Below, in pieces: positions 1 through 64,000 of a DNA stretch of 64,000 nucleotides. Within the stretch, counting starts at the first letter, position 1, and each line of letters opens with the position of its first letter. The stretch comes from Serinicoccus profundi. GTDB taxonomy: Bacteria; Actinomycetota; Actinomycetes; Actinomycetales; Dermatophilaceae. Below the pieces are notes generated by a model. That model saw nothing but the letters and a program-made list of their open reading frames with translations, ran no database searches and had not been told where the DNA came from. The stretch lies in NCBI RefSeq assembly GCF_008001015.1, contig NZ_CP042862.1, forward strand, positions 310,001 through 374,000, in the 5' to 3' direction. The position numbers and the translations under genes are program-made.

Positions 1-177
1 GTGCGGTATGCGGGCGCTGACCTGTCCGGCATCCAGCAGGCCTGGCAGGGGCTGGTCGCGGAGGTGGAGGCGCGCGGTCTCACGCCCACCGGGACCTGCC
101 GCGAGGTGTATGACGTGACGCCGTTCGACGGTGCAGGTGCGGGGTGGTCGGTGGACCTGCAGCAGCCGGTCGCCTAG
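1..177 (+). CDS. C-terminal end of a GyrI-like effector-binding regulator (partial)
   Basis: The first 59 codons are open in frame 1 and end at TAG. The window starts inside the gene, so any DNA-binding head is missing. The visible part has the pattern of the GyrI-like effector-binding domain found at the C-terminus of MerR/AraC-type regulators: a helix with AW..L, then EARGLTPTGTCREVYD, and a closing strand WSVDLQQPVA. In that family the domain binds small amphipathic ligands. Assignment rests on a short tail only, so it could also be a stand-alone GyrI-like protein. Confidence 0.5.
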   Translation: MRYAGADLSGIQQAWQGLVAEVEARGLTPTGTCREVYDVTPFDGAGAGWSVDLQQPVA

Positions 178-194
178 GCAGGGCGCGTCCAGAT

Positions 195-236
195 GGTCCC
201 GTGGGAGTGGGCGCATATGCCCACTTCCACGGGACC
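195..236. repeat. REP-like palindrome, copy 1
   Basis: An 18-base arm beginning GGTCCCGTGGGAGTGGGC pairs with a downstream arm across the 6-base loop GCATAT, with one mismatch (a possible G-U pair). It lies between the regulator tail and the nuclease-like gene. Two related palindromes follow that gene at 1378-1418 and 1439-1478, all with arms built on GTCCCGTRGGAGT. It could act as a bidirectional terminator or as a repetitive extragenic palindrome. Confidence 0.8.
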
Positions 237-281
237 TTCTATGCAGGGCTGTGGATGACGGACAGCCGGCGCGGACATCTG

Positions 282-411
282 GGTGCAGAGTTGCCGGGAG
301 AGGCCGTGCCACGGGGAGGTGACGTAGGGGTGCAGAGTTCCAGGGGAAGGGATGCCGTGAGGTGCAGAGCTCCAGGGGAGGGGCTGATGGTGGAGAGCTC
401 CAGAGGGAGGG
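282..411 (+). repeat. Four short direct repeats, leader of the nuclease-like gene
   Basis: Four imperfect copies of GGTGSAGAGYTCCAGRGGA start near 282, 329, 361 and 389 with irregular spacing. The last one supplies the purine-rich ribosome site before the ATG at 417. The tract could encode a repeat peptide only if translation began upstream. I see it as an untranslated leader made of duplicated ribosome-binding-site-like sequence. Confidence 0.6.
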
Positions 412-416
412 AGGCC

Positions 417-1376
417 ATGGGGGTGGAGAGGGCTGGGACGGGACGGACGCCGTCCGCCCGGCGTCGGGCATGGCGCCAGGAGGTAGGGCGCCAGGTGGCC
501 CGGCGGCACGGCGGCGTCGCCAACCGTGCTGACCTGCTGCGGGCGGGACTGGCCGACCACGACGTGCGCGCCGAGGTCGATCGTGGCGTGTGGCACCGCG
601 CCGGATGCCACACCCTCTGCATCGAGGGAGCGGCACCGCAGGGTGAGGGTCTGCTGTGGCGGGCGCTGTGGGAGTCGGGGCCGCGCGCAGTGCTGGACGG
701 TCCCACCTCCCTCATCGCCGCCGGTCTCCTGCACTGGGAGGAGCCCCTCGTCCACGTCTGCGTGCCGCGCAACGCCACCGTCCGCGACATCCCCGGGGTG
801 CGCTGTCACGTGGTGCGGGACATCGGCCCGACGATCCCCTTCGGCCTTCGCCGCACCAGGCCGGAGGTCGCCCTCATCCGTGCCGCCGAGTGGGCGCGCT
901 CCGACCGGGCCGCCTCGACCCTGATCGCCATGACGGTGCAGCAGCGTCTCGTCCCTCCCGCGGCGGTCCTGGACCGGTGGTCGCAGACGCGCCGGTCCTC
1001 CCGGCGGCGCCTCCTCGACTCGGTGATCCGCGACGTCTGCGACGGGGCCCACTCGATCAACGAGCTCGACGTCGCCCAGGCGTGCCGAGCGCGCGGCATA
1101 CCTGAGCCGACTCGGCAGCAGGTCCGCAGGACCTCGACCGGGACCGTCTACCTCGATCTCTTCTGGGAGGGCTTCGGGGTGCACGCGGAGGTCCAGGGCG
1201 CGCACCATCTGTGGGGCCTGAACGGGGTGGACGACGCCGTGCGCGGCAACGCCCTGGCCGTCGGGGCGCGGGGGCTGGTGAGCCTGCAGATCCCGGTCCT
1301 GGGCTGGCGGCTGCACCCGGAGGTCTTCCTCGACCAGATCGCCGACGCGCTGCGCGCGGGAGGGTGGGCCGCTTGA
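417..1376 (+). CDS. AbiEi-like / DUF559 (Vsr-fold) nuclease-like protein
   Basis: A 319-residue protein of a type common in actinobacteria. The N-terminal part has the winged-helix pattern of the AbiEi antitoxin family (GGVANRADLLRAGL followed by VDRGVWHRAGCHTLC). The C-terminal part, YLDLFWEGFGVHAEVQGAHH, resembles the Vsr/DUF559 endonuclease core, with D, E and a following H in the expected order. Whether it cuts DNA is not known; in this family the domain may serve as antitoxin or regulator. The ATG at 417 was chosen because GGGAGGGAGG precedes it; an in-frame ATG at 387 is possible. No partner toxin is adjacent. REP-like palindromes flank the gene on both sides. Confidence 0.65.
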   Translation: MGVERAGTGRTPSARRRAWRQEVGRQVARRHGGVANRADLLRAGLADHDVRAEVDRGVWHRAGCHTLCIEGAAPQGEGLLWRALWESGPRAVLDGPTSLIAAGLLHWEEPLVHVCVPRNATVRDIPGVRCHVVRDIGPTIPFGLRRTRPEVALIRAAEWARSDRAASTLIAMTVQQRLVPPAAVLDRWSQTRRSSRRRLLDSVIRDVCDGAHSINELDVAQACRARGIPEPTRQQVRRTSTGTVYLDLFWEGFGVHAEVQGAHHLWGLNGVDDAVRGNALAVGARGLVSLQIPVLGWRLHPEVFLDQIADALRAGGWAA

Positions 1377-1377
1377 G

Positions 1378-1418
1378 GGTCCCGCGAAAGTCGCAGGATA
1401 TGCCGACTCCTACGGGAC
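1378..1418. repeat. REP-like palindrome, copy 2
   Basis: Directly after the nuclease-like gene. The left arm GTCCCGCGAAAGTCG pairs with the right arm CGACTCCTACGGGAC, imperfectly, around a centre containing GGATATGC. It is related to the palindromes at 195-236 and 1439-1478. It probably also ends transcription of the preceding gene. Confidence 0.7.
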
Positions 1419-1438
1419 GCTGCGGGGTTGCTGCCGAT

Positions 1439-1478
1439 GGTCCCGTAGGAGTTGGCAGATATCCCGACTCCCACGGGA
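1439..1478. repeat. REP-like palindrome, copy 3
   Basis: Arms GTCCCGTAGGAGTTGG and CCGACTCCCACGGGAC pair at 14 of 16 positions. It stands in the same orientation as copy 2, about 60 bases further on, giving a tandem pair. It ends about 75 bases before the paaN start. Confidence 0.75.
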
Positions 1479-1554
1479 CGCTGCGGCGCTGCCGCTCTCC
1501 TCACCCCGAGATGCCGTGCCGACGCGACGCCGCGACCTCGTTACCCTGAGGAGC

Positions 1555-3255
1555 ATGGCGAAGACCGCGACGACGCACCCGCTCCTGGACCAGCACGCCG
1601 AGACCATCGAGGCCGCGACGCAGGCGCTGCGGGAGCGCAGCTACTACAGCCGCTACCCGGAGTCACCGAGCCCCCGGGTGTATGGCGAGGGCTCGCCGGA
1701 GCGGGGGCAGCTCGCCCACCAGGAGACGCTCAACAAGGAGATCGACGGCCTGGCCGACCAGCCCACGACCGGGCGCAGCGTCAGCTCGGAGAAGAGCCCC
1801 TACGGCCCGACGCTGGGCGTGCGCTACCCCGAGCTCGACGTCGACGCAGCGATGGCGGCCGCTCAGGCCGCGATCCCCGCCTGGCGCGACGCCAGCGCCG
1901 AGGTCCGCGCGGCCGTGCTCACCGAGGTCGTCGAGCGCATCAACGCCCGCTCCCACGAGATGGCGCACGCCGTCATGCACACGAGCGGCCAGCCGTTCGT
2001 CATGTCCTTCCAGGCCGGCGGCCCGCACGCCCAGGACCGCGCGCTCGAGGCGATCGTCGTCGCCCTGGAGGAGCAGCGCCGCGTCCCGGCGTCGGTCACC
2101 TGGGAGAAGCCGGCGAAGGGCGACCCGATCCGCATGCAGAAGGACTACCGCCTCGTCCCCCGCGGCGTCGCGCTCGTCATCGGCTGCAACACCTTCCCGA
2201 CCTGGAACGCCTACCCCGGCATCTTCGCCAGCCTGGCCACCGGCAATCCTGTCGTCATCAAGCCCCACCCCCGCGCGGTCCTGCCCCTCGCGCTCACCGT
2301 CCAGATCGCCCGCGAGGTGCTGGCCGAGGCCGGCTTCGACCCGGCCCTCGTCCAGCTCGCCGCGGAGGACGACGGCGGCACGCTCGCCAAGGATCTCGCG
2401 CTCCACCCGGCGGTCAAGATCATCGACTACACCGGCGGCCCCGGCTTCGGCCGCTGGCTGGAGACCGAGGCGGTCGCCGCCGGCAAGCTCGTCTACACCG
2501 AGAAGGCCGGCCTCAACACCGTCGTCGTCGACTCCACCGACGACCTGCGCGGCATGCTCGGCAACCTCACCTTCTCCTTCTCCCTGTACTCCGGCCAGAT
2601 GTGCACGGCCCCGCAGAATGTCTACGTCCCCGCCACCGTCACCACCGACGAGGGCGAGCTGTCCGCGGAGGAGTTCGCCGGCAAGCTGGGTCAGGCGATC
2701 AGCGCCTTCACCGGTGACGACGCCAAGGCTGTGGAGATCCTCGGGGCGACGGTCAACGACGACGTCCGCAGCCGCGTGACGGACGTCCCGGCGCTCGCGC
2801 AGAGCCTCGGCGGAGACGTCGTCCTCGACTCCCGGCCGGTGTCCCACCCCAGCTATCCCGACGCCGTCGTCCGCACCCCCGCCCTCATCGGCGTCGATGC
2901 CGGCAACGAGACGGCATACACCACCGAGTGCTTCGGCCCGGTCGCCTTCGTCGTCCGCACCGCGGACACGGCGGAGTCGCTGCGCCGGTTCGTGCAGACG
3001 GTCGCCGAGCACGGTGGCATGACCGCCGCGGTCTACTCCACCGACGAGCAGGTGCTCGACGACGCCCGGGACGCGGCGGCCGACGCCGGGGTCGCGCTGT
3101 CGGAGAACCTCACCGGCCAGATCTTCGTCAACCAGACGGCCGCGTTCTCCGACCTGCACGGCACGGGCGCCAACCCGGCCGCCAACGCCGCCTACGCCGA
3201 CGCAGCCTTCGTCGCCAACCGCTTCCGCGTCATCACCAGCCGGCGCCACGTCTGA
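1555..3255 (+). CDS. paaN: PaaN-type aldehyde dehydrogenase, phenylacetate degradation
   Basis: A 566-residue member of the aldehyde dehydrogenase superfamily of PaaN type. Visible are the characteristic N-terminal segment (ALRERSYYSRYPESPSPRVYG), the NAD-binding region around IGCNTFPTWNAYPG and the catalytic cysteine at about residue 350 in SGQMCTAPQN. In the phenylacetate pathway this family is associated with oxidation of a ring-opened aldehyde intermediate; the exact role of the stand-alone actinobacterial form is less settled. No other paa gene is in the window, so it is an orphan here. The ATG at 1555 follows CTGAGGAGC, a good ribosome site. Length is normal. Confidence 0.85.
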   Translation: MAKTATTHPLLDQHAETIEAATQALRERSYYSRYPESPSPRVYGEGSPERGQLAHQETLNKEIDGLADQPTTGRSVSSEKSPYGPTLGVRYPELDVDAAMAAAQAAIPAWRDASAEVRAAVLTEVVERINARSHEMAHAVMHTSGQPFVMSFQAGGPHAQDRALEAIVVALEEQRRVPASVTWEKPAKGDPIRMQKDYRLVPRGVALVIGCNTFPTWNAYPGIFASLATGNPVVIKPHPRAVLPLALTVQIAREVLAEAGFDPALVQLAAEDDGGTLAKDLALHPAVKIIDYTGGPGFGRWLETEAVAAGKLVYTEKAGLNTVVVDSTDDLRGMLGNLTFSFSLYSGQMCTAPQNVYVPATVTTDEGELSAEEFAGKLGQAISAFTGDDAKAVEILGATVNDDVRSRVTDVPALAQSLGGDVVLDSRPVSHPSYPDAVVRTPALIGVDAGNETAYTTECFGPVAFVVRTADTAESLRRFVQTVAEHGGMTAAVYSTDEQVLDDARDAAADAGVALSENLTGQIFVNQTAAFSDLHGTGANPAANAAYADAAFVANRFRVITSRRHV

Positions 3256-3266
3256 GGCTCGAGGGT

Positions 3267-4112
3267 ATGCCTTCTGCCGAGCACGACGCCTCCGTCCAGG
3301 GCGGCGGGTCTGACCCCCAGCCGCCCGAGCCCGCCGAGCCGGCGGCGGTCCGCCTGCGGGCCGTGGCGGACGGCGTGGTGGCCTTCGCCGGGCTGTCCGG
3401 GCTGCGCGCCCAGACTCCGGAGGACGCGGTCACGACGCTCCTCGCCCTCGTGGAGCAGGGCTTCGCCGCCGGTCGTCACCGGGTGGAGGCAGAGGTGCGG
3501 GCCGATGACGACGACGCCCGGCGCCTGCTCCAGCGGGCCGGTCTGCGCCCGGAGGGCGTGGGCCGGGGCCGGGGCACGACCCGCGAGGGCCGCCCGGTCG
3601 ACCTGCTGCGCCTGGCCCGACTGGTCGACGACCCGCCCCCGGGCGCGCCGGGCGCGTTCCTCGGCATGCTCAACGCCACCCTGCCCCGCAAGCGGCTCAT
3701 CGCCCAGGGCCTCGTGCGCGACGACGCGGGTCGGGTGCTCCTGTGCGAGCTGACCTACAAGACCGACTGGGACCTGCCCGGCGGCGTCGTCGACCCGCGG
3801 GAGTCACCGCGACAGACGGTGCAGCGCGAGCTGTGGGAGGAGCTGGGCCTCGACCTTGCGGTCGGCGAGCTGCTCACGGTCAACTGGCTGCCGCCCTACA
3901 AGCAGTGGGACGACGCGCTCCTCCTGGTCCACGACCTGGGGGTGCAGCCAGGCCTCGCCGACCGGGTGACGCTGCAGGCCAGCGAGCTGCGGGCCGTGCA
4001 CTGGGTGGACCCGGCCGACATCGACCAGCACGTCGCGCCCTACGTCGCACGCCACCTGCGCTCCCTCCTCGACGACGGCCCGGGCGAGCTCGAGGACGGC
4101 CACCGCATCTGA
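3267..4112 (+). CDS. Nudix hydrolase with N-terminal acetyltransferase-like segment
   Basis: A 281-residue protein in two parts. Residues about 25-115 look like the second half of a GNAT-type acetyltransferase (..LLQRAGLRPEGVGRGRG), and residues about 125-275 are a Nudix domain. The Nudix box runs from about residue 171: GGVVDPRESP then RELWEELG, which supplies the metal-binding glutamates. Nudix enzymes cleave nucleoside diphosphates linked to other groups; the substrate cannot be read here. The start ATG is part of the motif GGTATGCC and lies 11 bases after the paaN stop, so the two may be co-transcribed. The N-terminal domain may be a degenerate, non-catalytic partner. Confidence 0.8.
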   Translation: MPSAEHDASVQGGGSDPQPPEPAEPAAVRLRAVADGVVAFAGLSGLRAQTPEDAVTTLLALVEQGFAAGRHRVEAEVRADDDDARRLLQRAGLRPEGVGRGRGTTREGRPVDLLRLARLVDDPPPGAPGAFLGMLNATLPRKRLIAQGLVRDDAGRVLLCELTYKTDWDLPGGVVDPRESPRQTVQRELWEELGLDLAVGELLTVNWLPPYKQWDDALLLVHDLGVQPGLADRVTLQASELRAVHWVDPADIDQHVAPYVARHLRSLLDDGPGELEDGHRI

Positions 4113-4146
4113 GCCGCGGCCAGGGCGTGGGTGGCAGGATGCCCGC

Positions 4147-5175
4147 ATGACCCACGACGCCCGCCCCGTGCAGACCGCCCGCACCACCACCGCCGTCCGC
4201 GAGGCGGGAGAGCCGACCTCGCCCACCCTGCTCCTCATCCACGGCAATGTCTCCTCGTCGGCCTTCTTCGACCGGCTCATCGAGAACCTCGCCAGCGAGT
4301 TCCACGTCCTCGCGCCCGACTTCCGGGGGTATGGCGACTCCGCCCGGGAGACCATCAACGCCACCCGCGGCGTCGCGGACCTCTCCAACGACATCGCCGC
4401 GCTCCTGGACGCGCTCGAGGTGGAGGGCGCGGTGGACGTCCTCGGCTGGTCGGCCGGTGGCAACGTCGCGCTCCAGCTCGCGATGGACCACCCGCACCGG
4501 GTGCGGCGACTCGTGCTGGAGGCGCCCGGCAGCCCGTTCGGCTTCGGCGGCAGCACCGGTCTCGACGGGCGCCCGGTGGCCGAGGACTTCGCCGGCAGCG
4601 GCGGCGGCACCGCCAACCCGGCGTTCTGCGCGGCGCTGCAGGCGGGCGACCGCGGGGAGGAGCCGACGAGCCCGCGCACGACCTTGCGCGCGTTCTACGT
4701 CAAGCCCGGGTTCACGTTCGCGCCCGAGGTGGAGGAGGCATACCTCGACTCGATGCTCAAGACCTCGGTCGGCGACGACGTCTACCCGGGCGACACGACG
4801 ACCAGCGACACCTGGCCCGGCGTCGCGCCCGGGACGACGGGGATGAACAACGCGCTGTCGCCGAAGTACCTCGACCAGTCCGGTTTCGCCGACCTCGACC
4901 CGGCCCCGCCGGTGCTGTGGATCCGGGGCGCGGAGGACCAGATCGTCTCCGACACCTCGATGTTCGACCTCGCGCAGCTGGGCAGGCTCGGCGCCGTGCC
5001 TGGCTACCCGGGGGAGGACGTCTGCCCGACGCAGCCGATGGTGGGCCAGACGCGGGCGGTGCTGGAGCAGGCCGGCGAGTTCACCGAGGTCGTCTACGAG
5101 GACTGCGGCCACAGCCCGCACCTGGAGCACCCGGAGCGCTTCGCCGAGGACGTGCGGGCCTTCCTCCGGGGCTGA
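4147..5175 (+). CDS. Alpha/beta hydrolase
   Basis: A 342-residue alpha/beta-fold hydrolase. The oxyanion region is LLLIHGNVSSS, the nucleophile elbow is GWSAGG (Ser at about residue 102) and the likely catalytic His is in CGHSPHLEHPERF near the end. A candidate acid is the Asp in IRGAEDQIVSD. No membrane or signal segment is seen, so it is probably cytoplasmic. It follows the Nudix gene by 34 bases and converges on deoD with only 15 bases between them. Substrate unknown; the family includes esterases, C-C hydrolases and haloperoxidase-like enzymes. Confidence 0.85.
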   Translation: MTHDARPVQTARTTTAVREAGEPTSPTLLLIHGNVSSSAFFDRLIENLASEFHVLAPDFRGYGDSARETINATRGVADLSNDIAALLDALEVEGAVDVLGWSAGGNVALQLAMDHPHRVRRLVLEAPGSPFGFGGSTGLDGRPVAEDFAGSGGGTANPAFCAALQAGDRGEEPTSPRTTLRAFYVKPGFTFAPEVEEAYLDSMLKTSVGDDVYPGDTTTSDTWPGVAPGTTGMNNALSPKYLDQSGFADLDPAPPVLWIRGAEDQIVSDTSMFDLAQLGRLGAVPGYPGEDVCPTQPMVGQTRAVLEQAGEFTEVVYEDCGHSPHLEHPERFAEDVRAFLRG

Positions 5176-5190
5176 CCGGCAGCCCTGACC

Positions 5191-5907
5191 TCAGGGCAGC
5201 GGCGTCGCCAGCGCGGCGTCGAGGGCGATGGTGATCATGTCGCCGAAGGTCTGCTCGCGCTCCTGCGCGCTGGTCTCCTCACCGGTGACGATGTGGTCGC
5301 TGACGGTGCAGATCGCCAACGCCTGCCGACCGTGCTGCGCGGCGAGGGTGTAGATCTCGGCGGCCTCCATCTCGACGGCGACGACGCCGTACTCCACAAC
5401 CTTGCCGGTCAGCTCGGGGCGCGAGTGGTAGAAGCTGTCGGAGCTGAAGACGGTGCCGACGAGGTGCGGGGCGTCGGCGGCCTCGGCCGCCTCGACGGCC
5501 GCGCGCAGCAGGGCGAAGTCGGCGGTCGCCGGGTAGTGGTAGCCCTGGAACCGGAGGCTGTTCATCGAGCTGTCGGTCGCGGCGGCCTGGGCGATGACGA
5601 CGTCACGCACCTTGAGCCGCTCGGTGAGCGCCCCGCAGGAGCCGACGCGCACGAGCTGCTGCACGTCATACTCGCTGATCAGCTCGTTGACGTAGATCGA
5701 CGCCGACGGCTGCCCCATGCCGGTGCCCTGCACCGAGACGCGCTCGCCGCGGTAGGTGCCGGTGAAGCCGAGCATGCCGCGCACCTCGGAGTAGCAGGTG
5801 GCGTCGTCGAGGAAGTTCTCGGCGATCCAGCGGGCGCGCAGCGGGTCGCCGGGGAGGAGGACACGGGGGGCGATCTGGCCGGGGTCGGCAGCGATGTGGG
5901 TGCTCAC
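5191..5907 (-). CDS. deoD: Purine-nucleoside phosphorylase, DeoD type
   Basis: A 238-residue protein of the hexameric (DeoD) purine-nucleoside phosphorylase family, which splits purine (deoxy)nucleosides with phosphate to base and (deoxy)ribose 1-phosphate for salvage. Visible are LLPGDPLRA near the start, the phosphate/ribose site region GTGMGQPSASIYVNEL, VRVGSCGAL, the VEMEAAEIY motif that contacts ribose, and a C-terminal CTVSDHIVTGE. The start is GTG at 5907. It stands alone and runs towards the alpha/beta hydrolase gene. Confidence 0.92.
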   Translation of the reverse strand: MSTHIAADPGQIAPRVLLPGDPLRARWIAENFLDDATCYSEVRGMLGFTGTYRGERVSVQGTGMGQPSASIYVNELISEYDVQQLVRVGSCGALTERLKVRDVVIAQAAATDSSMNSLRFQGYHYPATADFALLRAAVEAAEAADAPHLVGTVFSSDSFYHSRPELTGKVVEYGVVAVEMEAAEIYTLAAQHGRQALAICTVSDHIVTGEETSAQEREQTFGDMITIALDAALATPLP

Positions 5908-6017
5908 GCGCCCAGGGTATGCCGTGTGCTCCCGGTCTTCTCGTCGTCACCGCAGCGTCGTCTCACCGTCTTCTCCTTTTCCCCTGGTGAGGTAGGGGTG
6001 GACGAAAGGGGAGCGGT

Positions 6018-7142
6018 ATGGGGCGAGGGTGGCCTGGTGCGTTGGGGCACCGGATCTCTGCTGCGCTGCGGTGGCGGCTGCGGGCGGTGCGCGCCCGGCG
6101 CGCGGCGGCCCGCCGCGACCCGCACGCGGTGGCGCTGGAGATGGTGCGCCAGGTGGAGCGCCGTGAGCGGCCGCTGCCGACGCGGCTCGTGCGCCGGGTC
6201 TTCACCGCGCACGGCCGGGCGCTGACGGCGGCGAGCGCGCCGGAGTCGATCGCCTCCCTGATCCCCGAGATGCTCAGCGAGCCCGCGGGCCGGCAGCACG
6301 TGCGGGCGGCGGTCGCGGCGGATGCGGTGGTGCTGGCGAAGTTCGGCGTGCGGGGCGGGATCAAGCTGCGTGCGGCCTATGCCGGGGCCGACCTGACCGT
6401 CGCGGTGGACGGCTCCGGTGACCTGGCCCGCCTCGAGCGGATCCTGCACTCCCACCGGGTCGTGGGCGCCGTCGACCCCACCCTCATCCCTCCGCTGGTC
6501 TCGTCGGGGTCGCTGCCGGGTGGCGCGTGCTACGTCGTCGAGCGGTGGGTCCACGGACGGTCGGTCACGACGGGGAGCCGTCTGACCGAGGCCGCGCCGG
6601 AGGTGCTGCGTCGGCTGCGGGCGGTCCACCTGGGGCACGGCGTCGAGCAGCTGCCGCTGGGTGCCTGGTGGGACGAGATGCGGCAGGAGTGGTGGGAGGA
6701 GACGGTGCGGGCCGAGCTCGTGCCGCCTCACGTCGTCGACGCGGTCGGCGCCCTCGTCGGCCACGACGATCGCACGGTCGCGACCTCGTGGTGCCACGGC
6801 GACCTCGTGGCCTCCAACGTCATCGACACCGACGCGGGGCACGTGCTCATCGACTGGGAGCGCGCCGGGGTGGCGCCGGTCATGCTCGACGCCGCCCGGC
6901 TGCACCTCTTCTCCGGCGACCCGGAGCGCACGCTCGCCGACATCCGCCGGCAGTGGAGCTGGGAGACCGGGCCGACCGAGGTGGACCTGACTCACCAGCT
7001 CGCGCTCGCCCACGCCTACCAGCTCAGCGCCTACCCCCTGCGCCGTGCCGGGCTGGCGACGCACGCCCGCGCGGCGGTCTACGAGCGGCAGGCGCGGCGC
7101 CAGGTCGCGCGGTTGGCCCAGGTGCTCGACCTGCCGGTATGA
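6018..7142 (+). CDS. Aminoglycoside-phosphotransferase-fold kinase-like protein
   Basis: A 374-residue protein. The C-terminal half has the catalytic signature of the APH/choline-kinase fold: WCHGDLVASNVI (catalytic loop with Asp) followed by VLIDWERAG (metal-binding Asp). The N-terminal 100 residues are Arg- and Ala-rich and do not show a clear nucleotide-binding lobe. The substrate could be a sugar, an amino alcohol or an antibiotic; nothing nearby decides it. The ATG at 6018 follows GAAAGGGGAGCGG. The region between it and deoD (110 bases) holds the divergent promoters. Confidence 0.75.
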   Translation: MGRGWPGALGHRISAALRWRLRAVRARRAAARRDPHAVALEMVRQVERRERPLPTRLVRRVFTAHGRALTAASAPESIASLIPEMLSEPAGRQHVRAAVAADAVVLAKFGVRGGIKLRAAYAGADLTVAVDGSGDLARLERILHSHRVVGAVDPTLIPPLVSSGSLPGGACYVVERWVHGRSVTTGSRLTEAAPEVLRRLRAVHLGHGVEQLPLGAWWDEMRQEWWEETVRAELVPPHVVDAVGALVGHDDRTVATSWCHGDLVASNVIDTDAGHVLIDWERAGVAPVMLDAARLHLFSGDPERTLADIRRQWSWETGPTEVDLTHQLALAHAYQLSAYPLRRAGLATHARAAVYERQARRQVARLAQVLDLPV

Positions 7143-7165
7143 CGTGGCGCAGGTAGGTTCGACGC

Positions 7166-8389
7166 ATGCCTCGACCTCGGTCCCGGAGCCCTCGACCACT
7201 GCTCGTGGGCGCTCTCGCCCTGGCACTCGCGGGGTGCTCCGGCGGGGCTGAGGAGGCCGAGGGTGACGACGCCCGGCTCGGCGAAGTCGACGCCGAGCCC
7301 GCACCGGCCGAGAGCGAGGGGGCCGGCTCGGGAGGCAGGGACGCGGGGGACGACGCCGACGACACCCTCCCGGCGCTGGAGGTCGAGGTCGTCGCCGAAG
7401 GGCTGACCCTCCCGTGGGACGTGCAGCACCTGCCTGACGGCACCGCGCTGGTGACCGAGCGCGACGGGCGACTGCTGGCGCTGGACGGTGGGGAGGTCCG
7501 CGAGGTGGCCCTCGACATCCCGGACCTCTTCGTCGGCTCGGAGTCAGGGCTGATGGGCCTCGCGCTCGCACCTGACGGCGGCACGGCATACCTCTGCCAC
7601 GCGACGCAGTCCGGCGGCCAGCCGCAGGACGTCCGCGTCACCCGCTGGCAGCTCGACGAGGGCGCGACTGCGGCGATTACGGACGGCGTGGTGGTGGACG
7701 GTATGCCGATCACCTCCGGTCGGCACGGCGGCTGCCGCCTGCTGCTCACCGACGACGCGCTCTACGTCGGCACGGGTGACGCGGCCGACGAGACCAACCC
7801 TCAGTCGCTGGACTCCCTCGGCGGCAAGGTGCTCGCGGTGACGCCCGAGGGTGAGCCGCTGGCCGACGCGCCCTTCGTCGACGGCGACCCGCGGATCTAC
7901 ACCTATGGACACCGCAACGTGCAGGGCCTGGCCAGCCAGCCGGGCAGCGGGACGATCTGGTCGGTGGAGCACGGCTCGTCGGTCGACGACGAGGTCAACC
8001 GGCTGGAGCCGGGGGCGAACTACGGGTGGGCGCCGGGGGCGGGATACGACGAGTCGGTGCCGATGACCGACACCGAGCGCTTCCCCGACGCGGTCGAGGC
8101 GGCGTGGAGCAGCGGCGACCCGACGCACGCGACGACCGGGGCGGTCTTCCTCGACGGCGAGCAGTGGGGCGCGTGGGACGGCGCGCTCGCGACCGCCGAG
8201 CTCAAGGGGGCGGGCGTCACGGTGCTGCGGGTCGACGGCGAGCAGGTCGTGGGTGAGGACCGGATGGCCGAGCTGGAGGGCGCCTACGGCCGCCTGCGCT
8301 CGCTCACCCTCGCCGACGACGGATCCCTGTGGGTGACAACGTCCAACGGTGAGGGCGACGTCGTCCTGCGGGTGACGCCGAGGGAGTGA
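7166..8389 (+). CDS. PQQ-dependent sugar dehydrogenase lipoprotein (glucose/sorbosone dehydrogenase)
   Basis: A 407-residue exported lipoprotein: signal peptide with lipobox LALAGC, then an acidic, low-complexity linker to about residue 70, then a beta-propeller of the glucose/sorbosone dehydrogenase family. Hallmarks are LPWDVQHLPDGTALVTERDG, YVGTGDAADETNPQSL, YGHRNVQGLA and LEPGANYGWAPG. Members oxidise aldose sugars using PQQ as cofactor outside the cell; some actinobacterial members have no proven activity. No PQQ biosynthesis gene is in the window. It follows the kinase-like gene by 23 bases. Confidence 0.85.
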   Translation: MPRPRSRSPRPLLVGALALALAGCSGGAEEAEGDDARLGEVDAEPAPAESEGAGSGGRDAGDDADDTLPALEVEVVAEGLTLPWDVQHLPDGTALVTERDGRLLALDGGEVREVALDIPDLFVGSESGLMGLALAPDGGTAYLCHATQSGGQPQDVRVTRWQLDEGATAAITDGVVVDGMPITSGRHGGCRLLLTDDALYVGTGDAADETNPQSLDSLGGKVLAVTPEGEPLADAPFVDGDPRIYTYGHRNVQGLASQPGSGTIWSVEHGSSVDDEVNRLEPGANYGWAPGAGYDESVPMTDTERFPDAVEAAWSSGDPTHATTGAVFLDGEQWGAWDGALATAELKGAGVTVLRVDGEQVVGEDRMAELEGAYGRLRSLTLADDGSLWVTTSNGEGDVVLRVTPRE

Positions 8390-57845: not shown

Positions 57846-58270
57846 GCCCCCGCCTCCTGCCCGGCGTGGGGGCGCAGCTGCTCGGGGGCCGGGTTCCCCG
57901 CGGTCCCCGCGCCGTAGTTCGGGCACAGCGCGACCGCATACCCCGACGTCGCGAGCAGGCGCTCCGCCGCGTCCAGCACGTCCAGCAGCTCCGGAGCACT
58001 GGTCAGCGAGAACATCGAGGCCCGGCCCTCCGGGCGCGAGACCACCAGGCCGCAGTCTCGCAGGCAGGCCAGGTGCGCACTGACCGTGGACTGCGCCAGC
58101 CCCAGGTGCTCCGTGAGGTCGCGCACCTTGTGCTCCCCCAGCGTCAGGTGCTGCAGGATCGCCAACCGTGACCGGTCTGACAGACCGTGGAACAGCGCGG
58201 CCGCCACGTCGAGCCCTTCAGCTCGGGTGCCGTCGCCTGGCGCGGGTGCGCTCTGTGATGTCATCGTCAT
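57842..58270 (-). CDS. ArsR/SmtB metal sensor, CmtR-like
   Basis: A 142-residue winged-helix repressor. STVSAHLACLRDCGLVVSRP carries the CxxxC pair of CmtR-type sensors, and AVALCPNYG gives the third Cys. It is closely similar to the regulator at 34554-34913, including FHGLSDRSRLAILQHL. It precedes and overlaps the ATPase gene and so controls that part of the operon. The start may be ATG 58270 or 58264. Confidence 0.88.
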   Translation of the reverse strand: MTMTSQSAPAPGDGTRAEGLDVAAALFHGLSDRSRLAILQHLTLGEHKVRDLTEHLGLAQSTVSAHLACLRDCGLVVSRPEGRASMFSLTSAPELLDVLDAAERLLATSGYAVALCPNYGAGTAGNPAPEQLRPHAGQEAGA

Positions 58271-58325
58271 GCGCCGATCATAGCCGGATGCCGGCCGTCC
58301 CGGCGCCTGAGCCGCGGCAAGCGTC

Positions 58326-58943
58326 CTAGGCGAGGGTGATCCAGTAGTCCCAGAACCGGACGGCGATCAGAGCCGCGACCACCAGGCACCATGTCGTGAC
58401 GATCGTGACGGCGTAGTCTCCGACCCACCGTGGAAGCGCCCCGGCGCGGGACCACCGGGCCAGTACCGCGACGAACGCGGCCACGGTGACGACCCAGACC
58501 ACCATGCAGTACGGGCACAGCGCACCGATGCGGTGGACGCTCTGGAAGATGAGCCAGTGCACGAACACCGTGCCCAGCGCCGTACCCGCGGTCAGGCCGA
58601 TCCAGTACCAGGACGGCAGCCGGGCGCCGCTGATGATCGTGACGGCGACGGTGACCAGGGCGGCGAAGCCGGCCACGCCCAGGATCGGGTTGGGGAACCC
58701 GAACAGCTCCGCCTGGGGGGTGCTCATCACCGACCCGCAGCTCAGCAGCGGGCTGATGCTGCAGCTGGGCACGTAGCTCGGGTCGGCGACCAGCCGGATC
58801 TTCTCCACCAGCAGCACGAACGCCGCCGACAGACCGACCCAGCCGCACACGAGCAGGACCCACCCCACGGCCCTCCCGACCGGCGCGCCGGGCTCCTGGG
58901 AAGGAGCGGTGAGCGCGGCGGGCTCAGCGGTTGACGGCTGCAT
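58326..58943 (-). CDS. Vitamin K epoxide reductase (VKOR) family protein
   Basis: A 205-residue membrane protein with four to five helices. It has the loop cysteines SCSISPLLSCGSV and the active-site CPYC (ALCPYCMVVW). Bacterial VKOR reoxidises DsbA-like thiol oxidases using quinone, so it keeps disulfide formation going outside the membrane. ATG 58943 taken; the first 80 bases overlap the end of the DsbA-like gene by 20, which supports a pair. Confidence 0.9.
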   Translation of the reverse strand: MQPSTAEPAALTAPSQEPGAPVGRAVGWVLLVCGWVGLSAAFVLLVEKIRLVADPSYVPSCSISPLLSCGSVMSTPQAELFGFPNPILGVAGFAALVTVAVTIISGARLPSWYWIGLTAGTALGTVFVHWLIFQSVHRIGALCPYCMVVWVVTVAAFVAVLARWSRAGALPRWVGDYAVTIVTTWCLVVAALIAVRFWDYWITLA

Positions 58944-59583
58944 CGATCTGGGCGCGGAAGTCGCCCTCGGAGGTGGGCTGCAGCAGCTCACCGTCCAGGA
59001 AGAAGGTCGGGGTTCCCTGGACACCCAGTGCCATGCCGTCCTGCCGGTCCTGCTCCACGCGCTGCTGGGTGGCGGGGTCGGCGACGGCGGCGTCGTAGGC
59101 GGCCATGTCCAGCCCGAGGTCCTGGGCGAACTGCCGGAACAGCGGCGCCTTGGAGTCCTGCTGCTCGCCCCATTCGCTCTGCGTCTGGTACATCCGCGTG
59201 TACATGTCCTCGAACCGGCCCTGCTGGGCCGCCGCCTCGACCGCCACCGCCGCGTTCATCGCGTTGGCGTGGCTGGGGATCGGGAAGTACCGGACCACGA
59301 ACGTCAGCTCCCCGGCGTACTCCTCGCGGATCTGCTCCACCAGCGGGTAGGCCGCCAGGCACGCCTCGCACTCGAAGTCCAGGAACTCGACCAGCACCGG
59401 CGCGCCCTCACCGGCGTCGGAGAGCACGTGGCTGTCCTCCCTCACGACCGGCACCGCCGAGCTCGTTCGCGCCGAGTCCGCGACACCGGTGCCGGACGGC
59501 GGGCGGGTCACGCCAACGGCGACGGCCACCACCGCAACGAAGACGGCGATCAGCAGGAGGGACAGGATCACGTTGCGCCGCAC
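58924..59583 (-). CDS. DsbA-like thioredoxin-fold oxidase
   Basis: A 219-residue protein with an N-terminal anchor (VILSLLLIAVFVAVVAVAVG) and an exported thioredoxin-fold domain whose active site is CEAC (FLDFECEACLAAYP); VQGTPTFFLDGELL gives the cis-Pro. It should put disulfides into exported proteins and be recharged by the adjacent VKOR. The start is GTG 59583 after AAGGAG. It overlaps the VKOR gene by 20 bases. Confidence 0.9.
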   Translation of the reverse strand: MRRNVILSLLLIAVFVAVVAVAVGVTRPPSGTGVADSARTSSAVPVVREDSHVLSDAGEGAPVLVEFLDFECEACLAAYPLVEQIREEYAGELTFVVRYFPIPSHANAMNAAVAVEAAAQQGRFEDMYTRMYQTQSEWGEQQDSKAPLFRQFAQDLGLDMAAYDAAVADPATQQRVEQDRQDGMALGVQGTPTFFLDGELLQPTSEGDFRAQIDAAVNR

Positions 59584-59735
59584 GGGCACTCCTTCATCAG
59601 GCGACACGGACGATCGGCCAGTCTGGCCGAGGATGCGGGAAGTCCCGACGCGGATCGTAGAGCCAGACCCTGAGAAGACTCTGGCCCGGTGCGACAAACG
59701 CCATTCGGACAGGGCAGGGACCGATGCGCCCCTAC

Positions 59736-60326
59736 CTACAGGCCGAAGGCGCCACCTTCGACGAGGATCGCCACGCCGAGTCCGATCAGGACCAGAGGGA
59801 ACAGGACGTGCTCCCAGCGTTCCAGGACCTCTGCGATGGGCCTACGGGTGGCGACGAACTTGGCGAGCAGGACAAGCACCATGACGAGGACGAGGAAGAC
59901 GACGCAGTAGGCCACGACCGCGCCGGCGCCGACGGTGACGAAGACGGGGACGTAGACGCCGATGTTGTCACCGCCGTTGGCGAAGGTGACACCGGCGACC
60001 GTCAGGGCGCTGATCGTCTTGTCCGCGACCCGGTCGTCATCGTCTCCGTCGCCGCGCCAGACCTTCCATGCGGTCAGCAGGCCGAGCAGCAACGGGATGA
60101 GCCCGAAGTAGGCGATCGCCGACTCGGGCAGGAAGGTCACCGCGCCCAGGGAGACCAGTACCGAGACGACGAGTATGCCGCCGAAGCCCAGGTACTGACC
60201 CACGACGATCTTCCTGGTCGTGCCGCGCAAGCCGGCGCCCCGGGCGAAGAAGAGTGACAGCACGATGATGTCGTCGATGTTGGTGGCCATGAACAGCCCG
60301 AAGGCCTGCAGGACTGAGGTGAGCAC
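59736..60326 (-). CDS. cadD: CadD-family cadmium resistance transporter, second copy
   Basis: A 196-residue paralogue of the protein at 49240-49839, sharing ATNIDDIIVLSLFFARGAGL, TFANGGDNIGVYVPVF and ERWEHVLFPLVLIGLGVAIL. The loop GDGDDDD is present too. It has no adjacent cmtR; it may respond through the operon's promoter. A weak hairpin (GCCAGA/TCTGGC, 59662-59685) lies after the stop. Confidence 0.88.
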   Translation of the reverse strand: MLTSVLQAFGLFMATNIDDIIVLSLFFARGAGLRGTTRKIVVGQYLGFGGILVVSVLVSLGAVTFLPESAIAYFGLIPLLLGLLTAWKVWRGDGDDDDRVADKTISALTVAGVTFANGGDNIGVYVPVFVTVGAGAVVAYCVVFLVLVMVLVLLAKFVATRRPIAEVLERWEHVLFPLVLIGLGVAILVEGGAFGL

Positions 60327-60381
60327 AGGGTGATGCCTTCGGTCGTGTGTGGTGGGTCAGGCGGGCGACGTGGCCACGCGG

Positions 60382-61053
60382 TCAGCCGCTGGTGTCGGTC
60401 CCGGCCGGCTGCCGTGGTGAGCGCAGCTCGAGCAGCGCCAGCAAGACGACCCCGGTGACGATCGCGGTGTCAGCCAGGTTGAACGTGGGCCACCACCCGC
60501 TGTGCAGATAGTCGGTCACCACACCGTCAAGAGAGCGATCGATCCAGTTGCCGCACCCACCACCAAGAATCGCCGTCACTGCGGCGAGCCGCCAACAGTC
60601 CCACGTCGGAGCGGCCCGCCAGGCCACGACGGCGATCGCGACGATGACCAGGCCGGTGAGCGCGACGACCAGTGCGGCCGGCGCGTCAGCGCCGAGGGAG
60701 AACGCCACCCCCGGGTTGTGACTCAGCACGAGGTCGACTGGACCCAGGGCCAGCCCCGCCTCCAGCGCGCTCTCAGCCCACGCCTTGACCAACAGGTCCG
60801 TCACCGCCACCGCCGCGGCACCGGCCACCAGGACGGCGCGACGCGGTGCCAGTTTCGTCACGGACGCTGCTGTCCATCCCACACGACGCCCACCAGGGGT
60901 CGTTGACACCCGCTGGCGGGGATCGGCCGGGGCAGAACCGGACACGCCTGCTGCTCGAGGGCCACGCGCCGCAAGGCGGTTGGAGCGCCTCTGGTTGCCC
61001 CCAGCTCCTGGCGGGTCAGGCTGGGACCCACCGGGCGGGGTTAGAATCGACAT
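60382..61053 (-). CDS. lspA: Lipoprotein signal peptidase (signal peptidase II)
   Basis: A membrane aspartic protease that removes lipoprotein signal peptides. Four helices with NPGVAFSLG and the catalytic aspartates in GGGCGNWIDRS and FNLADTAIVTG. As read from ATG 61053 it has 223 residues, about 55 more than usual, with a Pro/Arg-rich head; a GTG at 60882 would give a normal 166 residues and may be the true start. lspA copies are often carried in metal-resistance regions next to efflux pumps. Confidence 0.88.
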   Translation of the reverse strand: MSILTPPGGSQPDPPGAGGNQRRSNRLAARGPRAAGVSGSAPADPRQRVSTTPGGRRVGWTAASVTKLAPRRAVLVAGAAAVAVTDLLVKAWAESALEAGLALGPVDLVLSHNPGVAFSLGADAPAALVVALTGLVIVAIAVVAWRAAPTWDCWRLAAVTAILGGGCGNWIDRSLDGVVTDYLHSGWWPTFNLADTAIVTGVVLLALLELRSPRQPAGTDTSG

Positions 61054-61364
61054 GCGGCGATGGTAGCGAGTGACGCTGCTGTCAGCAAAGGGTAGAGTCG
61101 CACGGGCGGCCGTGTGGCCGGCTCGTCACCACCGTGGCGACCCTCAACCATCGCGTTCGGCAGGCAGAGTGGTAGCGGATGGAAGGTAAGCGGCATGGGC
61201 ACCATAGGGCGACCCCGGGTGGAGCGAGGCGGTGGACGAGCAGGACGCCCCGACCCCCTCGAGCCGGCCAGCGGTCGACGGCCTCGCCGACAGACGATCT
61301 CGGTCGTGCGCTCGCGAGGCATGCTCGCAAACGGGGCACACGGCGACTTCGACGGGCTGCTCCG
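61054..61364. other. Divergent promoter region between lspA and tlpA-like genes
   Basis: About 310 bases. The reading frame of the tlpA-like gene extends upstream to 61179 but the extra peptide is Arg/Pro-rich and unlike the family. No confident gene on either strand. It must hold the promoters for both the leftward metal/lipoprotein run and the rightward cytochrome run. Confidence 0.45.
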
Positions 61365-61961
61365 GTGACCCGCGGGCACCTCCTGGCCCTGCTCGCGGCC
61401 GTAGCAGTGGTCCTGGCCGGCTGCGGTGGCGAGGGCTCGACGATCAACGACCAAATGCGTCAGGGCGACCAGAAGGGATACGTCGCCGGTGACGGCACCA
61501 TCCAGGTGCTGGCGCCGGAGGAGCGCGAGACCGTCATCACCCTGGAGGGGACGACCCTGGAAGACGAGGCGTGGTCCTCGCAGGACCACCTGGGCGAGGT
61601 CGTGGTGGTCAACGTGTGGGGGTCGTGGTGCGGGCCGTGCGTGGAGGAGGCGCCGGACCTGGAGGAGGTGGCCACCGAGTTCGCCGAGGCGGGTGAGCCG
61701 GTGCAGTTCATCGGGGTCAACAGCCGTGACTCGGTACCCAGCGCCCTGGCCTTCCAGCAGAAGTACGACGTGTCCTACCCCTCGCTCCAGGACGACGGCG
61801 GGCGCACCCGCGCCCAGCTGCAGGGGCTGGCCGTCGCGACGCCGACCACGATGGTCCTCGACGGACAGGGGCGCCTCGCCGCCCGGGTCAGCGGACCCGT
61901 GGAGGCGTCGACGCTGCGCGGCCTGGTCGAGGACGTGCTGAAGAGTGAGTCCGCCCGGTGA
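61365..61961 (+). CDS. TlpA/ResA-type thiol-disulfide lipoprotein
   Basis: A 198-residue protein. The signal peptide ends in a lipobox (VVLAGCGG); the thioredoxin fold has WGSWCGPC as active site and VATPTTMVLDGQGRL with cis-Pro. It reduces disulfides outside the membrane, for example in apocytochrome c. I chose GTG 61365, where the signal peptide begins. The stop overlaps the ccdA start by four bases (GTGA). Confidence 0.88.
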   Translation: MTRGHLLALLAAVAVVLAGCGGEGSTINDQMRQGDQKGYVAGDGTIQVLAPEERETVITLEGTTLEDEAWSSQDHLGEVVVVNVWGSWCGPCVEEAPDLEEVATEFAEAGEPVQFIGVNSRDSVPSALAFQQKYDVSYPSLQDDGGRTRAQLQGLAVATPTTMVLDGQGRLAARVSGPVEASTLRGLVEDVLKSESAR

Positions 61962-62704
61962 GCGAGGTCGTTCTCAGCGGGCCGCTGCTGCTGGCCGCCG
62001 CGATCGCCGCGCTGGCAGGTCTCGTCTCGTTCGCCTCGCCGTGCGTGCTACCGCTGGTCCCCGGCTATGTCGGTTACCTCTCGGGAATGGCGTCGCCCAT
62101 GTCGGGCGCTCACGCGCCGGGGCGGTGGCGCCCGACGGTCGGGGCGCTGCTGTTCGTTATGGGTTTCTCGGCCGTCTTCATGGCGATGAGCGTGGTCATC
62201 TCCTCCCTGGGCATGGCCCTGGCGCAGCACCAGGGGCTGCTGCTGCGCCTGTCCGGCGCGGTCGTCCTCGGCCTCGGCCTGGTCATGCTGCTGCAGCCGA
62301 CAGCATCAGTTTCGGTGCGGTGGCGACCGGCCGCCGGGATCGCCGGGGCTCCGCTGCTCGGGGTCGCCTTTGGCCTGGGATTCAGCGCCTGCACCGGACC
62401 GGCGCTCGCCGCGATCCAGACGCTCGGCACCTCGATCCTCCCGGGGGACGACCAGGTGGGCCGCGCCCTGGTGCTGGGCACCGCATACAGCCTGGGACTG
62501 GGGGTGCCGTTCGTGCTCGCCGCCGCCGGGCTGGGCTGGGCCAGCCGCGCCTCGCGCTGGCTGCGCGACCACTACCTGCTCGTGCAGCGCGTCGGCGGCG
62601 GGCTGCTCGTCCTCCTCGGCCTGCTCATGATCGCCGGCATCTGGGCCGAGGCCATGGCGTGGGTCCAGACCCGACTGACCAGCAACTTCACCACGGTGAT
62701 CTGA
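61958..62704 (+). CDS. ccdA: Cytochrome c biogenesis protein CcdA
   Basis: A 248-residue, six-helix membrane protein that passes electrons from cytoplasmic thioredoxin to outer thiol proteins such as TlpA/ResA. The two redox cysteines are in SFASPCVLPLVPGYVGYLSG and LGFSACTGPALAAIQ. It starts at GTG 61958, overlapping the tlpA-like stop, and resB follows in the next bases. Confidence 0.92.
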   Translation: MSEVVLSGPLLLAAAIAALAGLVSFASPCVLPLVPGYVGYLSGMASPMSGAHAPGRWRPTVGALLFVMGFSAVFMAMSVVISSLGMALAQHQGLLLRLSGAVVLGLGLVMLLQPTASVSVRWRPAAGIAGAPLLGVAFGLGFSACTGPALAAIQTLGTSILPGDDQVGRALVLGTAYSLGLGVPFVLAAAGLGWASRASRWLRDHYLLVQRVGGGLLVLLGLLMIAGIWAEAMAWVQTRLTSNFTTVI

Positions 62705-62705
62705 C

Positions 62706-64000
62706 ATGGCCAGCACGCGAACACCGGAACGGATCGAGCCGTCCTATCCCAAGGACCGCACCACCTTGGGCGGCCCCCGGCTCGGCGCACTGGGCTGGGC
62801 ACGTTGGGCCTGGCGGCAGCTGACCAGCATGCGCACCGCCATCTACCTGCTTCTGCTGCTGGCGGCCGCGTCCTTCCCCGGCTCAATCTTCCCGCAACGT
62901 TCCGTGGACCCGGTGCAGGTGCGCACCTTCTTCGAGAACAACCCCGACCTGGCGCCCTGGCTGGACCGGTTGTTCCTCTTCGATGTGTTCTCCTCCCCGT
63001 GGTTCGCCTCGATCTATCTGCTGCTGGTGATCAGCCTGGTCGGTTGCATCATCCCGCGGATGCGCCAACACTGGCGTTCGATCCGAGCCCAGCCGCCGCC
63101 GGCACCCCGGCGCCTGGCCAGGCTGCACGCCCGCGCCGACGGAACCCTCACCGCCGAGGCACCCGAGGTACTGGCCGCAGCCCGGCAGTCGCTGAAGGCG
63201 AAGGGCTACCGGCTGCGCGAGGCCGAAGACGGCGATCTCTGGGTCACTGGCGAGAAGGGGTACCTGAAGGAGACCGGAAACCTGCTCTTCCATCTGGCTC
63301 TGCTGGGTGTGATCGTCGCCTTCGCCGCCGGTAACCTGTTCGGCTGGCGCGGGGAGATCATCATCCAGGAGGGGCAGTCGTGGACGGCCACTGCCGGCAC
63401 CTTCGACACGCTCAACTTCAGCCCGCTGGCCGGTGAGGGGGACATTCCCACGTTCACCGTGGAGCTCAACAAACTCGACGTAGCCTTCGAGAGTCAGGCC
63501 GAAGGCGCCCAGTTCGGCCAACCCCGCAGGTTCGACGGGTTGGCCACCGTCGAGGTCCCCGGCCGGGAACCCGAGCAGCAGGAGTTCGCAGTCAACCACC
63601 CGATCTCCGTGGCCGGAGACTCCATCTTCCTGCTCGGCAACGGCTACGCCCCCATCGTGACCATCCGCGACCCCGACGGAGAAGTCCTCTACTCCGACGC
63701 GGTCACCTTCCTCCCACAGGACAACAACTACGCCAGCGAGGGCGCCATCAAGGTCACCGCGCGAGACCCCGGCCTCGGTCTGGTCGGCGGCTTCCTACCG
63801 ACCCTGCGCATTGATCCCGAGCTGGGGATGACGTCCTCCTTCCCCGGCCTGGTCGACCCCGTGCTGGCACTGACGGCATTCGAGGGAAACCTGTTCCCCG
63901 ACGGGCGCCCGCAGTCGGTCTTCAATATCGACACCGACCAGATGACCCAGCTCACCGACGAGGAGGGCAACCCCGTCGCGATGCTGATCCGCCCGGGCGA
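62706..64000 (+). CDS. resB: Cytochrome c biogenesis protein ResB (partial at right edge)
   Basis: At least 431 residues; the gene runs off the window without a stop. The ResB pattern is clear: WRQLTSMRTAIYLLLLLAAA, SIFPQRSVDPVQV, FFENNPDLAPWLDRLFLFDV, SSPWFASIYLLLVISLVGCI and later GNLLFHLALLGVIVAFAAGN. With ResC it carries heme outward for system II cytochrome c assembly. ATG 62706 lies one base after the ccdA stop. A resC gene is expected just beyond the edge. Confidence 0.92.
   Translation, partial: MASTRTPERIEPSYPKDRTTLGGPRLGALGWARWAWRQLTSMRTAIYLLLLLAAASFPGSIFPQRSVDPVQVRTFFENNPDLAPWLDRLFLFDVFSSPWFASIYLLLVISLVGCIIPRMRQHWRSIRAQPPPAPRRLARLHARADGTLTAEAPEVLAAARQSLKAKGYRLREAEDGDLWVTGEKGYLKETGNLLFHLALLGVIVAFAAGNLFGWRGEIIIQEGQSWTATAGTFDTLNFSPLAGEGDIPTFTVELNKLDVAFESQAEGAQFGQPRRFDGLATVEVPGREPEQQEFAVNHPISVAGDSIFLLGNGYAPIVTIRDPDGEVLYSDAVTFLPQDNNYASEGAIKVTARDPGLGLVGGFLPTLRIDPELGMTSSFPGLVDPVLALTAFEGNLFPDGRPQSVFNIDTDQMTQLTDEEGNPVAMLIRPG

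Follow-up and report, generated by a model that had tools for sequence, protein, structure and literature searches.

What keeps the seven-letter word GTATGCC so frequent in one stretch of the Serinicoccus profundi chromosome? The stretch analysed here, the window, is 64 kb long and runs from base 310001 to base 374000 of a genome that forms one contig (3,475,711 bp). It contains 40 exact copies on both strands, 19 as GTATGCC and 21 as GGCATAC, close to the roughly 39 given in an earlier note made from the letters of the window. In 100 dinucleotide-preserving shuffles of the window, the mean is 2.85 copies and the largest count is 7. Judged from sequence comparisons, GTATGCC is probably a DNA uptake sequence (DUS), that is, a self-recognition tag that would favour DNA of the cell's own lineage in natural transformation. 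The earlier note had offered an uptake sequence, a chromosome-organising site and a methylation site as options, and the first of these appears to fit best.

The division of the window into motif-rich and motif-poor regions described in the earlier note is reproduced. There are 9 copies in 1-12600 (9.0 expected at the genome rate), 1 in 12601-24450 (8.5 expected, P = 0.002), 27 in 24451-49000 (17.5 expected) and 3 in 49001-64000 (10.7 expected, P = 0.006). The two motif-poor regions combined hold 4 copies where 19.2 are expected (P = 3e-5). The copies, all exact matches, and the two motif-poor regions are as follows.

1095-1101, minus strand, GTATGCC copy
2913-2919, minus strand, GTATGCC copy
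3265-3271, plus strand, GTATGCC copy, provides the ATG start at 3267 (crude gene caller)
4737-4743, minus strand, GTATGCC copy
5917-5923, plus strand, GTATGCC copy
7585-7591, minus strand, GTATGCC copy
7701-7707, plus strand, GTATGCC copy
10057-10063, minus strand, GTATGCC copy
11962-11968, plus strand, GTATGCC copy
12601-24450, no strand, motif-poor region, island-like, GC 66.0%, 1 copy against 8.5 expected
15091-15097, plus strand, GTATGCC copy, the sole one within the 12.6-24.45 kb poor region
25096-25102, minus strand, GTATGCC copy
25436-25442, plus strand, GTATGCC copy
26923-26929, plus strand, GTATGCC copy
27985-27991, minus strand, GTATGCC copy
29434-29440, plus strand, GTATGCC copy
30103-30109, minus strand, GTATGCC copy
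30727-30733, minus strand, GTATGCC copy
31952-31958, minus strand, GTATGCC copy
33247-33253, minus strand, GTATGCC copy
33400-33406, plus strand, GTATGCC copy
34973-34979, plus strand, GTATGCC copy within the near-perfect palindrome GGTATGCCGCATACC (34972-34986)
35319-35325, minus strand, GTATGCC copy
35489-35495, minus strand, GTATGCC copy
36224-36230, minus strand, GTATGCC copy
36419-36425, minus strand, GTATGCC copy
36521-36527, plus strand, GTATGCC copy
36771-36777, plus strand, GTATGCC copy
38050-38056, plus strand, GTATGCC copy
39761-39767, minus strand, GTATGCC copy, left arm of a close inverted pair with 39815
39815-39821, plus strand, GTATGCC copy, right arm of the inverted pair with 39761, provides the ATG start at 39817
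43042-43048, plus strand, GTATGCC copy
43197-43203, minus strand, GTATGCC copy
44198-44204, plus strand, GTATGCC copy
44852-44858, minus strand, GTATGCC copy
46542-46548, minus strand, GTATGCC copy
47151-47157, plus strand, GTATGCC copy
48272-48278, minus strand, GTATGCC copy
49001-64000, no strand, motif-poor region, GC 70.1%, 3 copies against 10.7 expected, with a Mutator-family transposase and two CadD-like transporters
53132-53138, plus strand, GTATGCC copy
54186-54192, minus strand, GTATGCC copy
60173-60179, plus strand, GTATGCC copy

The excess is genome-wide. The chromosome (3.48 Mb) contains 2480 copies, 1259 forward and 1221 reverse, compared with 144 (70 and 74) for the reversed word, which serves as a control. 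A count of all 7-mers against a Markov background, the check that the earlier note proposed, was made on a genome sample of 464 kb, made up of the window and a further 20 segments of 20 kb each. Under an order-2 model, GTATGCC comes first (317 copies, 24.6 expected); under an order-3 model (39.5 expected), it comes second to its own overlap TATGCCG. Together with its one-base overlaps, it heads all 7-mers of the sample. The preferred context of the word is G-GTATGCC-G(T), and the 10-mer GGTATGCCGT occurs 87 times where 0.6-0.9 copies are expected.

The word occupies all six reading frames, with 4, 17 and 121 copies where it lies on the sense strand of a gene and 26, 22 and 57 where it lies on the other. 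Its density is 0.65 per kb in coding DNA and 0.73 per kb outside called genes, as delimited by a crude gene caller. The suggestion that the word forces rare codons is borne out in the 464-kb sample. Tyr is encoded by TAT in 121 of 142 cases in the context G-TAT-GCC and in 77 of 1744 cases where neither flank fits; Ile is encoded by ATA in 26 of 78 cases in GGC-ATA-C and in 6 of 2902 where neither flank fits. The two start codons that the earlier note credited to the word are also found, at the copies beginning at 3265 and 39815. When synonymous codons of the called genes are shuffled with the protein and the next base kept, 27.2 copies are obtained, compared with 247 observed. Because of this difference and the use of six frames, GTATGCC is under selection or drive at the DNA level, as the earlier note had proposed.

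The same evidence refutes the view that the word is a functionless by-product of codon usage, codon pairs or mutation, since it occurs in six frames, in intergenic DNA and with rare codons. Codon-pair effects do make enriched words, and genome G065 probably provides an example (here and below, G, g and L numbers denote genomes, genera and loci). In G065 (L027-L030 and L071-L074), 78 of 85 copies of GTAGACC and 58 of 67 copies of GTAGAGC lie in one or two frames. These words, written GGTCTAC and GCTCTAC, were first read as a dialect and then dropped because they fall mainly in one or two reading frames. Their enrichment is probably codon-pair bias.

One-base variants of GGTATGCCG show a clear excess at the first base, the two C and the last base. 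Within GTATG, the excess is absent or weak. This is the tolerance profile expected of a reading protein. One single-base neighbour of the word, GGTATGCTG, is depleted (0 copies, 5.2 expected), and no overall depletion of one-base neighbours is seen in the variant counts of the genome sample. These counts bear on a rival explanation, in which a resident DNA methyltransferase and biased repair keep the word in the manner of HIP1, and differing methyltransferases lead to differing words. HIP1 of cyanobacteria is a palindromic word that is highly iterated in coding DNA and depends on the lineage, and iterated words have been linked to methyltransferases in those bacteria. The dispersed, chiefly coding and lineage-specific occurrence of GTATGCC agrees with such an origin. 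Short-patch repair might deplete the neighbours broadly, not GGTATGCTG alone. In addition, GTATGCC differs from its own reverse complement, unlike the palindromic HIP1, and the association tested below is with a pilus locus. A methyltransferase is an unlikely explanation of the word.

The dnaA gene sits at the contig start. With the terminus assumed to lie opposite dnaA, the leading strand carries 154 of the 317 copies sampled (P = 0.65), and there is no replication polarity. The strand-bias check raised in the earlier note thus gives balanced strands, and because of this balance its chromosome-organising option is disfavoured in the polar form, similar to Chi or to the FtsK-orienting polar sequences (KOPS). 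A recombination or segregation signal of this kind would account for the high density and the spread over the whole chromosome. It is very unlikely, as polarity relative to dnaA is absent, close inverted pairs are favoured and the word switches abruptly between genera.

The spacing of the copies is Poisson-like (coefficient of variation 1.04). Neighbouring copies less than 60 bp apart form 12 pairs, and 11 of them are inverted (two-sided binomial P = 0.006, on a small number of pairs). Fold prediction has the two arms pairing with each other in 10 of the 11, and 4 of the inverted pairs lie outside called genes. Poisson-like spacing and the use of both orientations would also suit a site for an abundant protein that organises the nucleoid or chromosome and has no part in uptake, and a reader with shifting specificity would yield dialects in that case too. 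A site of this type predicts neither the scarcity of the word in AT-rich DNA of the window genome nor the association with the tad locus, and we regard it as quite unlikely.

In the window genome, site density climbs with local GC content (Spearman 0.42, 116 local windows), and there are 0 sites per kb in the 6 of these 116 that are under 66% GC. The trend runs opposite to the compositional expectation for a word with three A/T bases. A like trend is seen in G108, a CGAAGGGGG genome (Spearman 0.46, 40 local windows). The earlier note read the gaps as recently acquired DNA. The scarcity in island-like and AT-rich DNA stands for the window genome, where the word-poor DNA would be foreign on the basis of its GC content and a transposase. 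The trend does not extend to two other word-bearing genomes, G145 and G055, which are treated below.

The two motif-poor regions of the window differ in gene content. Among ten frames from 12003-24007 compared with Pfam, one has a match (Mrr_cat) and the others are unrecognised. Two adjacent frames on the plus strand at 22029-24007, inside the first motif-poor region, form a candidate two-gene defence system. The first matches PADLOC PDC-M38A (E 2e-62) and more weakly PD-Lambda-5_A; the second resembles an Mrr-type nuclease (Pfam Mrr_cat) and has a weak match to PDC-S02. In the DNA at 49243-60326, about 10 kb separates two CadD-like cadmium transporters. This stretch also encodes VKOR, a cation efflux protein, a P-type ATPase, an apolipoprotein N-acyltransferase-like protein and, at 50520-51803, the Mutator-family transposase. 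It is a metal-resistance region that was probably acquired.

The comparison with related genera that the earlier note called for covers 186 genomes of the Dermatophilaceae in 53 genera. Genomes are classed as bearing GTATGCC at 150 copies per Mb and 1.7 times the control, as bearing GTACGCCG at 300 copies per Mb, and as bearing CGAAGGGGG by genus membership. With these thresholds, which were picked after the counts had been seen and applied to word counts transcribed by hand, 109 genomes carry GTATGCC, 10 carry GTACGCCG, 19 carry CGAAGGGGG and 48 carry none of the three. For the classification, the sizes of the g2 genomes were set uniformly at 3.9 Mb, and stand-in GTATGCC counts were used for 12 g2 genomes (50/30) and 15 of 16 g52 genomes (60/40). 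The stand-in counts leave the class unchanged, as the listed g2 and g52 counts are all far below the threshold.

The words are discrete. CGAAGGGGG occurs in 797-1939 copies in all 16 genomes of g52 and all 3 of g61, and in 11-80 copies in the other 167 genomes of the family. GTACGCCG, one base from GTATGCCG, occurs in 1125-4185 copies in its 10 genomes. GTATGCC and GTACGCCG have GTA-GCC in common, and CGAAGGGGG is without it. The window genome is not enriched in GTACGCCG (104 against 140), and the GTACGCCG-rich G145 has little GTATGCC (127 against 83). A few genomes are elevated in both words, such as G171 (GTATGCC 1000 against 310, GTACGCCG 1011 against 284). Congeners can differ: G141 and G142 carry GTATGCC, and G140 does not (40 against 34), having GTACGCCG and GTACGGCG instead. 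G066 (1694 against 1014) falls narrowly under the ratio threshold and is classed as word-less.

Named relatives were taken from the best 80 of 284 ComEC loci. By these, the window genome belongs to the Dermatophilaceae/Intrasporangiaceae, with Serinicoccus closest among the loci kept (73-76% ComEC identity). Among these, GTATGCC is frequent in the loci of Serinicoccus, Ornithinimicrobium, Knoellia, Pedococcus, Terrabacter, Intrasporangium and Flexivirga. It is present 0 or 1 times in seven loci of Janibacter and one of Marihabitans, where CGAAGGGG occurs 5-18 times instead. Janibacter sp. HTCC2649 (L197), with 19 GTATGCC, departs from this pattern. The named loci suggest that g52 is Janibacter. 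Genus g2 is Phycicoccus, as shown by 100% identity over 3795 bp of G181 to P. jejuensis and of G179 to P. endophyticus.

Five out-of-family genomes, with about 80 kb each, served as controls for the word-finding. In four of the five, the top words reach z 6.9-7.9 with just a 2- to 3-fold excess. In the fifth, G055, GGATGCCTC occurs 19 times where 0.6 copies are expected. The G055 genome has 1452 copies of this word compared with 5 of the reversed word (L155-L158). Among 119 genomes of the order, GGATGCCTC occurs in 35-466 copies in the seven other genomes of the G055 family and in at most 76 copies elsewhere. A family-specific word is thus present in at least one family besides the Dermatophilaceae.

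Modest z values are not trusted because four of the five controls reach z 6.9-7.9. The words of G140 (GTACGGCG), G022 (GTAGCGGC), G139 (CGATGCGG), G206 (CGGACGC), G077 (CTCCCCCG and CGTCAGC), G094 and G031 are kept as candidates only. In G077 (L107-L110), CTCCCCCG occurs 19 times in coding DNA where 1.9 copies are expected, in four frames, and is perhaps a ribosome-binding-like sequence or another word. The word scans show nothing above z 6 in G067 and G151, and the scan of about 80 kb shows nothing in G078. A test on about 80 kb is weak, given that a subset of G108 gives z 6.7 for CGAAGGGGG despite 1359 copies in the genome.

Machinery for DNA uptake is present in the window genome, where comEA (SLBB plus helix-hairpin-helix) adjoins comEC. 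ComEC is found in 180 of the 186 family genomes. Type IV pili marked by PilT are rejected as the uptake machine because PilT is over the cut-off in 2 of 186 genomes. TadA-kind secretion ATPases (PF00437) occur in all 19 genomes examined, 18 of them family members. The tad locus has the order tadA-tadB-tadC-flp-TadE-TadF-TadG in the window genome (L239) and in three other genomes (L240-L242); Pfam recognises tadA, tadB, tadC, TadE and TadG, and does not recognise Flp and TadF. The tad genes of Micrococcus luteus are reported to be needed for transformation (PMC4322843), and the locus order given there is the same as in these four genomes. By eye, the N-termini of TadE and TadF resemble the M. 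luteus ones shown in a review (PMC6370729).

The words are associated with the tad locus. At a cut-off of E<=0.001, 166 of the 186 genomes contain a TadF-like protein. Counting genomes or genera as independent, it is present in 133 of 138 word-bearing and 33 of 48 word-less genomes (P = 1.3e-6), and in 39 of 39 word-bearing and 8 of 14 word-less genera (Fisher P = 1.3e-4). Six of the 14 word-less genera lack the gene in every genome. Urease alpha, used as a control gene, shows no association (21 of 39 word-bearing and 9 of 14 word-less genera, P = 0.55, from a genus list transcribed by hand). Among the 20 genomes without TadF, TadE is found in 0 of 15 word-less and 4 of 5 word-bearing genomes; the matches are partial in G120 and partial and weak in G129 (E 1.5e-6). 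The fifth word-bearing genome, G197, has no TadE match and is a 74%-complete draft. Because of this difference in TadE, missing TadF in word-bearing genomes looks like the result of gaps or of decay in the recent past. The word-less genomes without TadF lack the locus. G120 and G129, which bear a word and seem to have lost the tad locus in part, are candidates for word decay after loss.

A DUS-like reading is preferred because it jointly explains the density, the two orientations, the frame-independence, the inverted pairs, the scarcity in AT-rich DNA, the lineage words and the link to the pilus. In the proposed chain, a protein that reads sequence and belongs to the competence apparatus would catch DNA of dead kin, which the Flp/Tad pilus would carry to ComEA and which would be taken in through ComEC. 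On recombination into the chromosome, tag-bearing alleles would be gained more often than lost, and tags would build up where the protein code or intergenic space permits. Newly acquired DNA would remain tag-poor until time and recombination supply tags. A change in reader specificity would lead to slow rewriting of the whole genome, giving the dialects GTATGCC, GTACGCCG and CGAAGGGGG. We infer competence of the cells, a dependence of uptake on the word, and a reader within the pilus or Com machinery. For the wider proposal, that the Dermatophilaceae and independently the GGATGCCTC family use a Flp/Tad-pilus self-recognition code with discrete genus words, and so practise genome-wide sexual isolation by password, the genomic patterns give a little better than an even chance.

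Several observations weigh against an uptake code. We know of no competence in the Dermatophilaceae. ComEC is near universal and does not discriminate between word-bearing and word-less genomes. Eight word-less genera, including Phycicoccus (g2, 12 genomes), keep a TadF-like gene, and pooled DNA of 7 Phycicoccus genomes (283 kb) yields no conspicuous word. G022, a congener of the window genome, has little GTATGCC (87 against 35) and keeps an intact-looking tad locus; its own candidate word GTAGCGGC is modest (32 against 6.0). The TadF matches of G019 (E 9e-8), G130 (1.3e-5) and G204 (9e-5) are weak, and two of these three genomes are word-bearing. The six genera that lack TadF could represent few loss events. 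No genome of its genus has more copies of CGAAGGGGG than G120, which is without TadF, and therefore the link between word and locus must tolerate recent loss. Inspection of 24 TadF sequences by eye reveals no clear correspondence between the C-x4-C loop and dialect. G145, a GTACGCCG genome, shows no fall in density with AT content (Spearman -0.21, P = 0.38, 20 local windows), and G055, the GGATGCCTC genome, shows no significant GC trend (Spearman 0.19, P = 0.43, 20 local windows). Sites also turn over between species, with 138 of 283 conserved in pairwise comparisons (0.49, compared with 0.41 for control 7-mers), the pairs not being independent.

To our knowledge, sequence-specific DNA uptake is established for a few Gram-negative families only, and an uptake code here would be the first DUS-like system known in Gram-positive bacteria. 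If so, uptake specificity would have evolved independently in monoderm actinobacteria and would use a different type of pilus. Natural competence, present or recent, would be predicted in 138 word-bearing species, none of which is known to us as transformable. The words would offer a simple way to read from a genome its history of competence and its recently acquired DNA. Natural dialect pairs, such as GTATGCC and GTACGCCG one base apart, could be used to find the reader protein, and the right word on DNA might ease laboratory transformation of these environmental bacteria.

Among known systems, HIP1 resembles GTATGCC as a highly iterated, lineage-dependent word in coding DNA and differs in being palindromic. 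The uptake signal sequences of the Pasteurellaceae are 9-letter words with two versions within one family. They belong to a different phylum and are different words. Flp/Tad-dependent transformation in M. luteus is found in another family; the term 'uptake sequence' does not appear in the accessible part of PMC4322843, and the accessible part of PMC8467076 on M. luteus names no uptake word and contains neither 'species-specific' nor 'foreign DNA'. In the open-access literature searched, no uptake-word system in actinobacteria is found among the matches listed. String searches of the literature for GTATGCC and GGCATAC give primers and the like, with nothing usable among the matches listed.

The DUS of the Neisseriaceae lies on both strands, as GTATGCC does. 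The stretch ATGCCGT is also contained in the 12-mer DUS, presumably by chance. As described by Frye et al. (PMC3630211), the Neisseriaceae DUS are over-represented words with dialects, inverted pairs and intragenic sites, and are read by the minor pilin ComP. They constitute an uptake system, and GTATGCC is a putative one; the hosts here are monoderm actinobacteria with a tad/Flp pilus locus. All DUS dialects share the core CTG, to which GTATGCC is unrelated; here, CGAAGGGGG has no common core with GTATGCC. The likeness to the DUS as described there (PMC3630211) lies in a short non-palindromic word with many copies, including in coding regions, in lineage dialects, and in inverted pairs able to form stem-loops.

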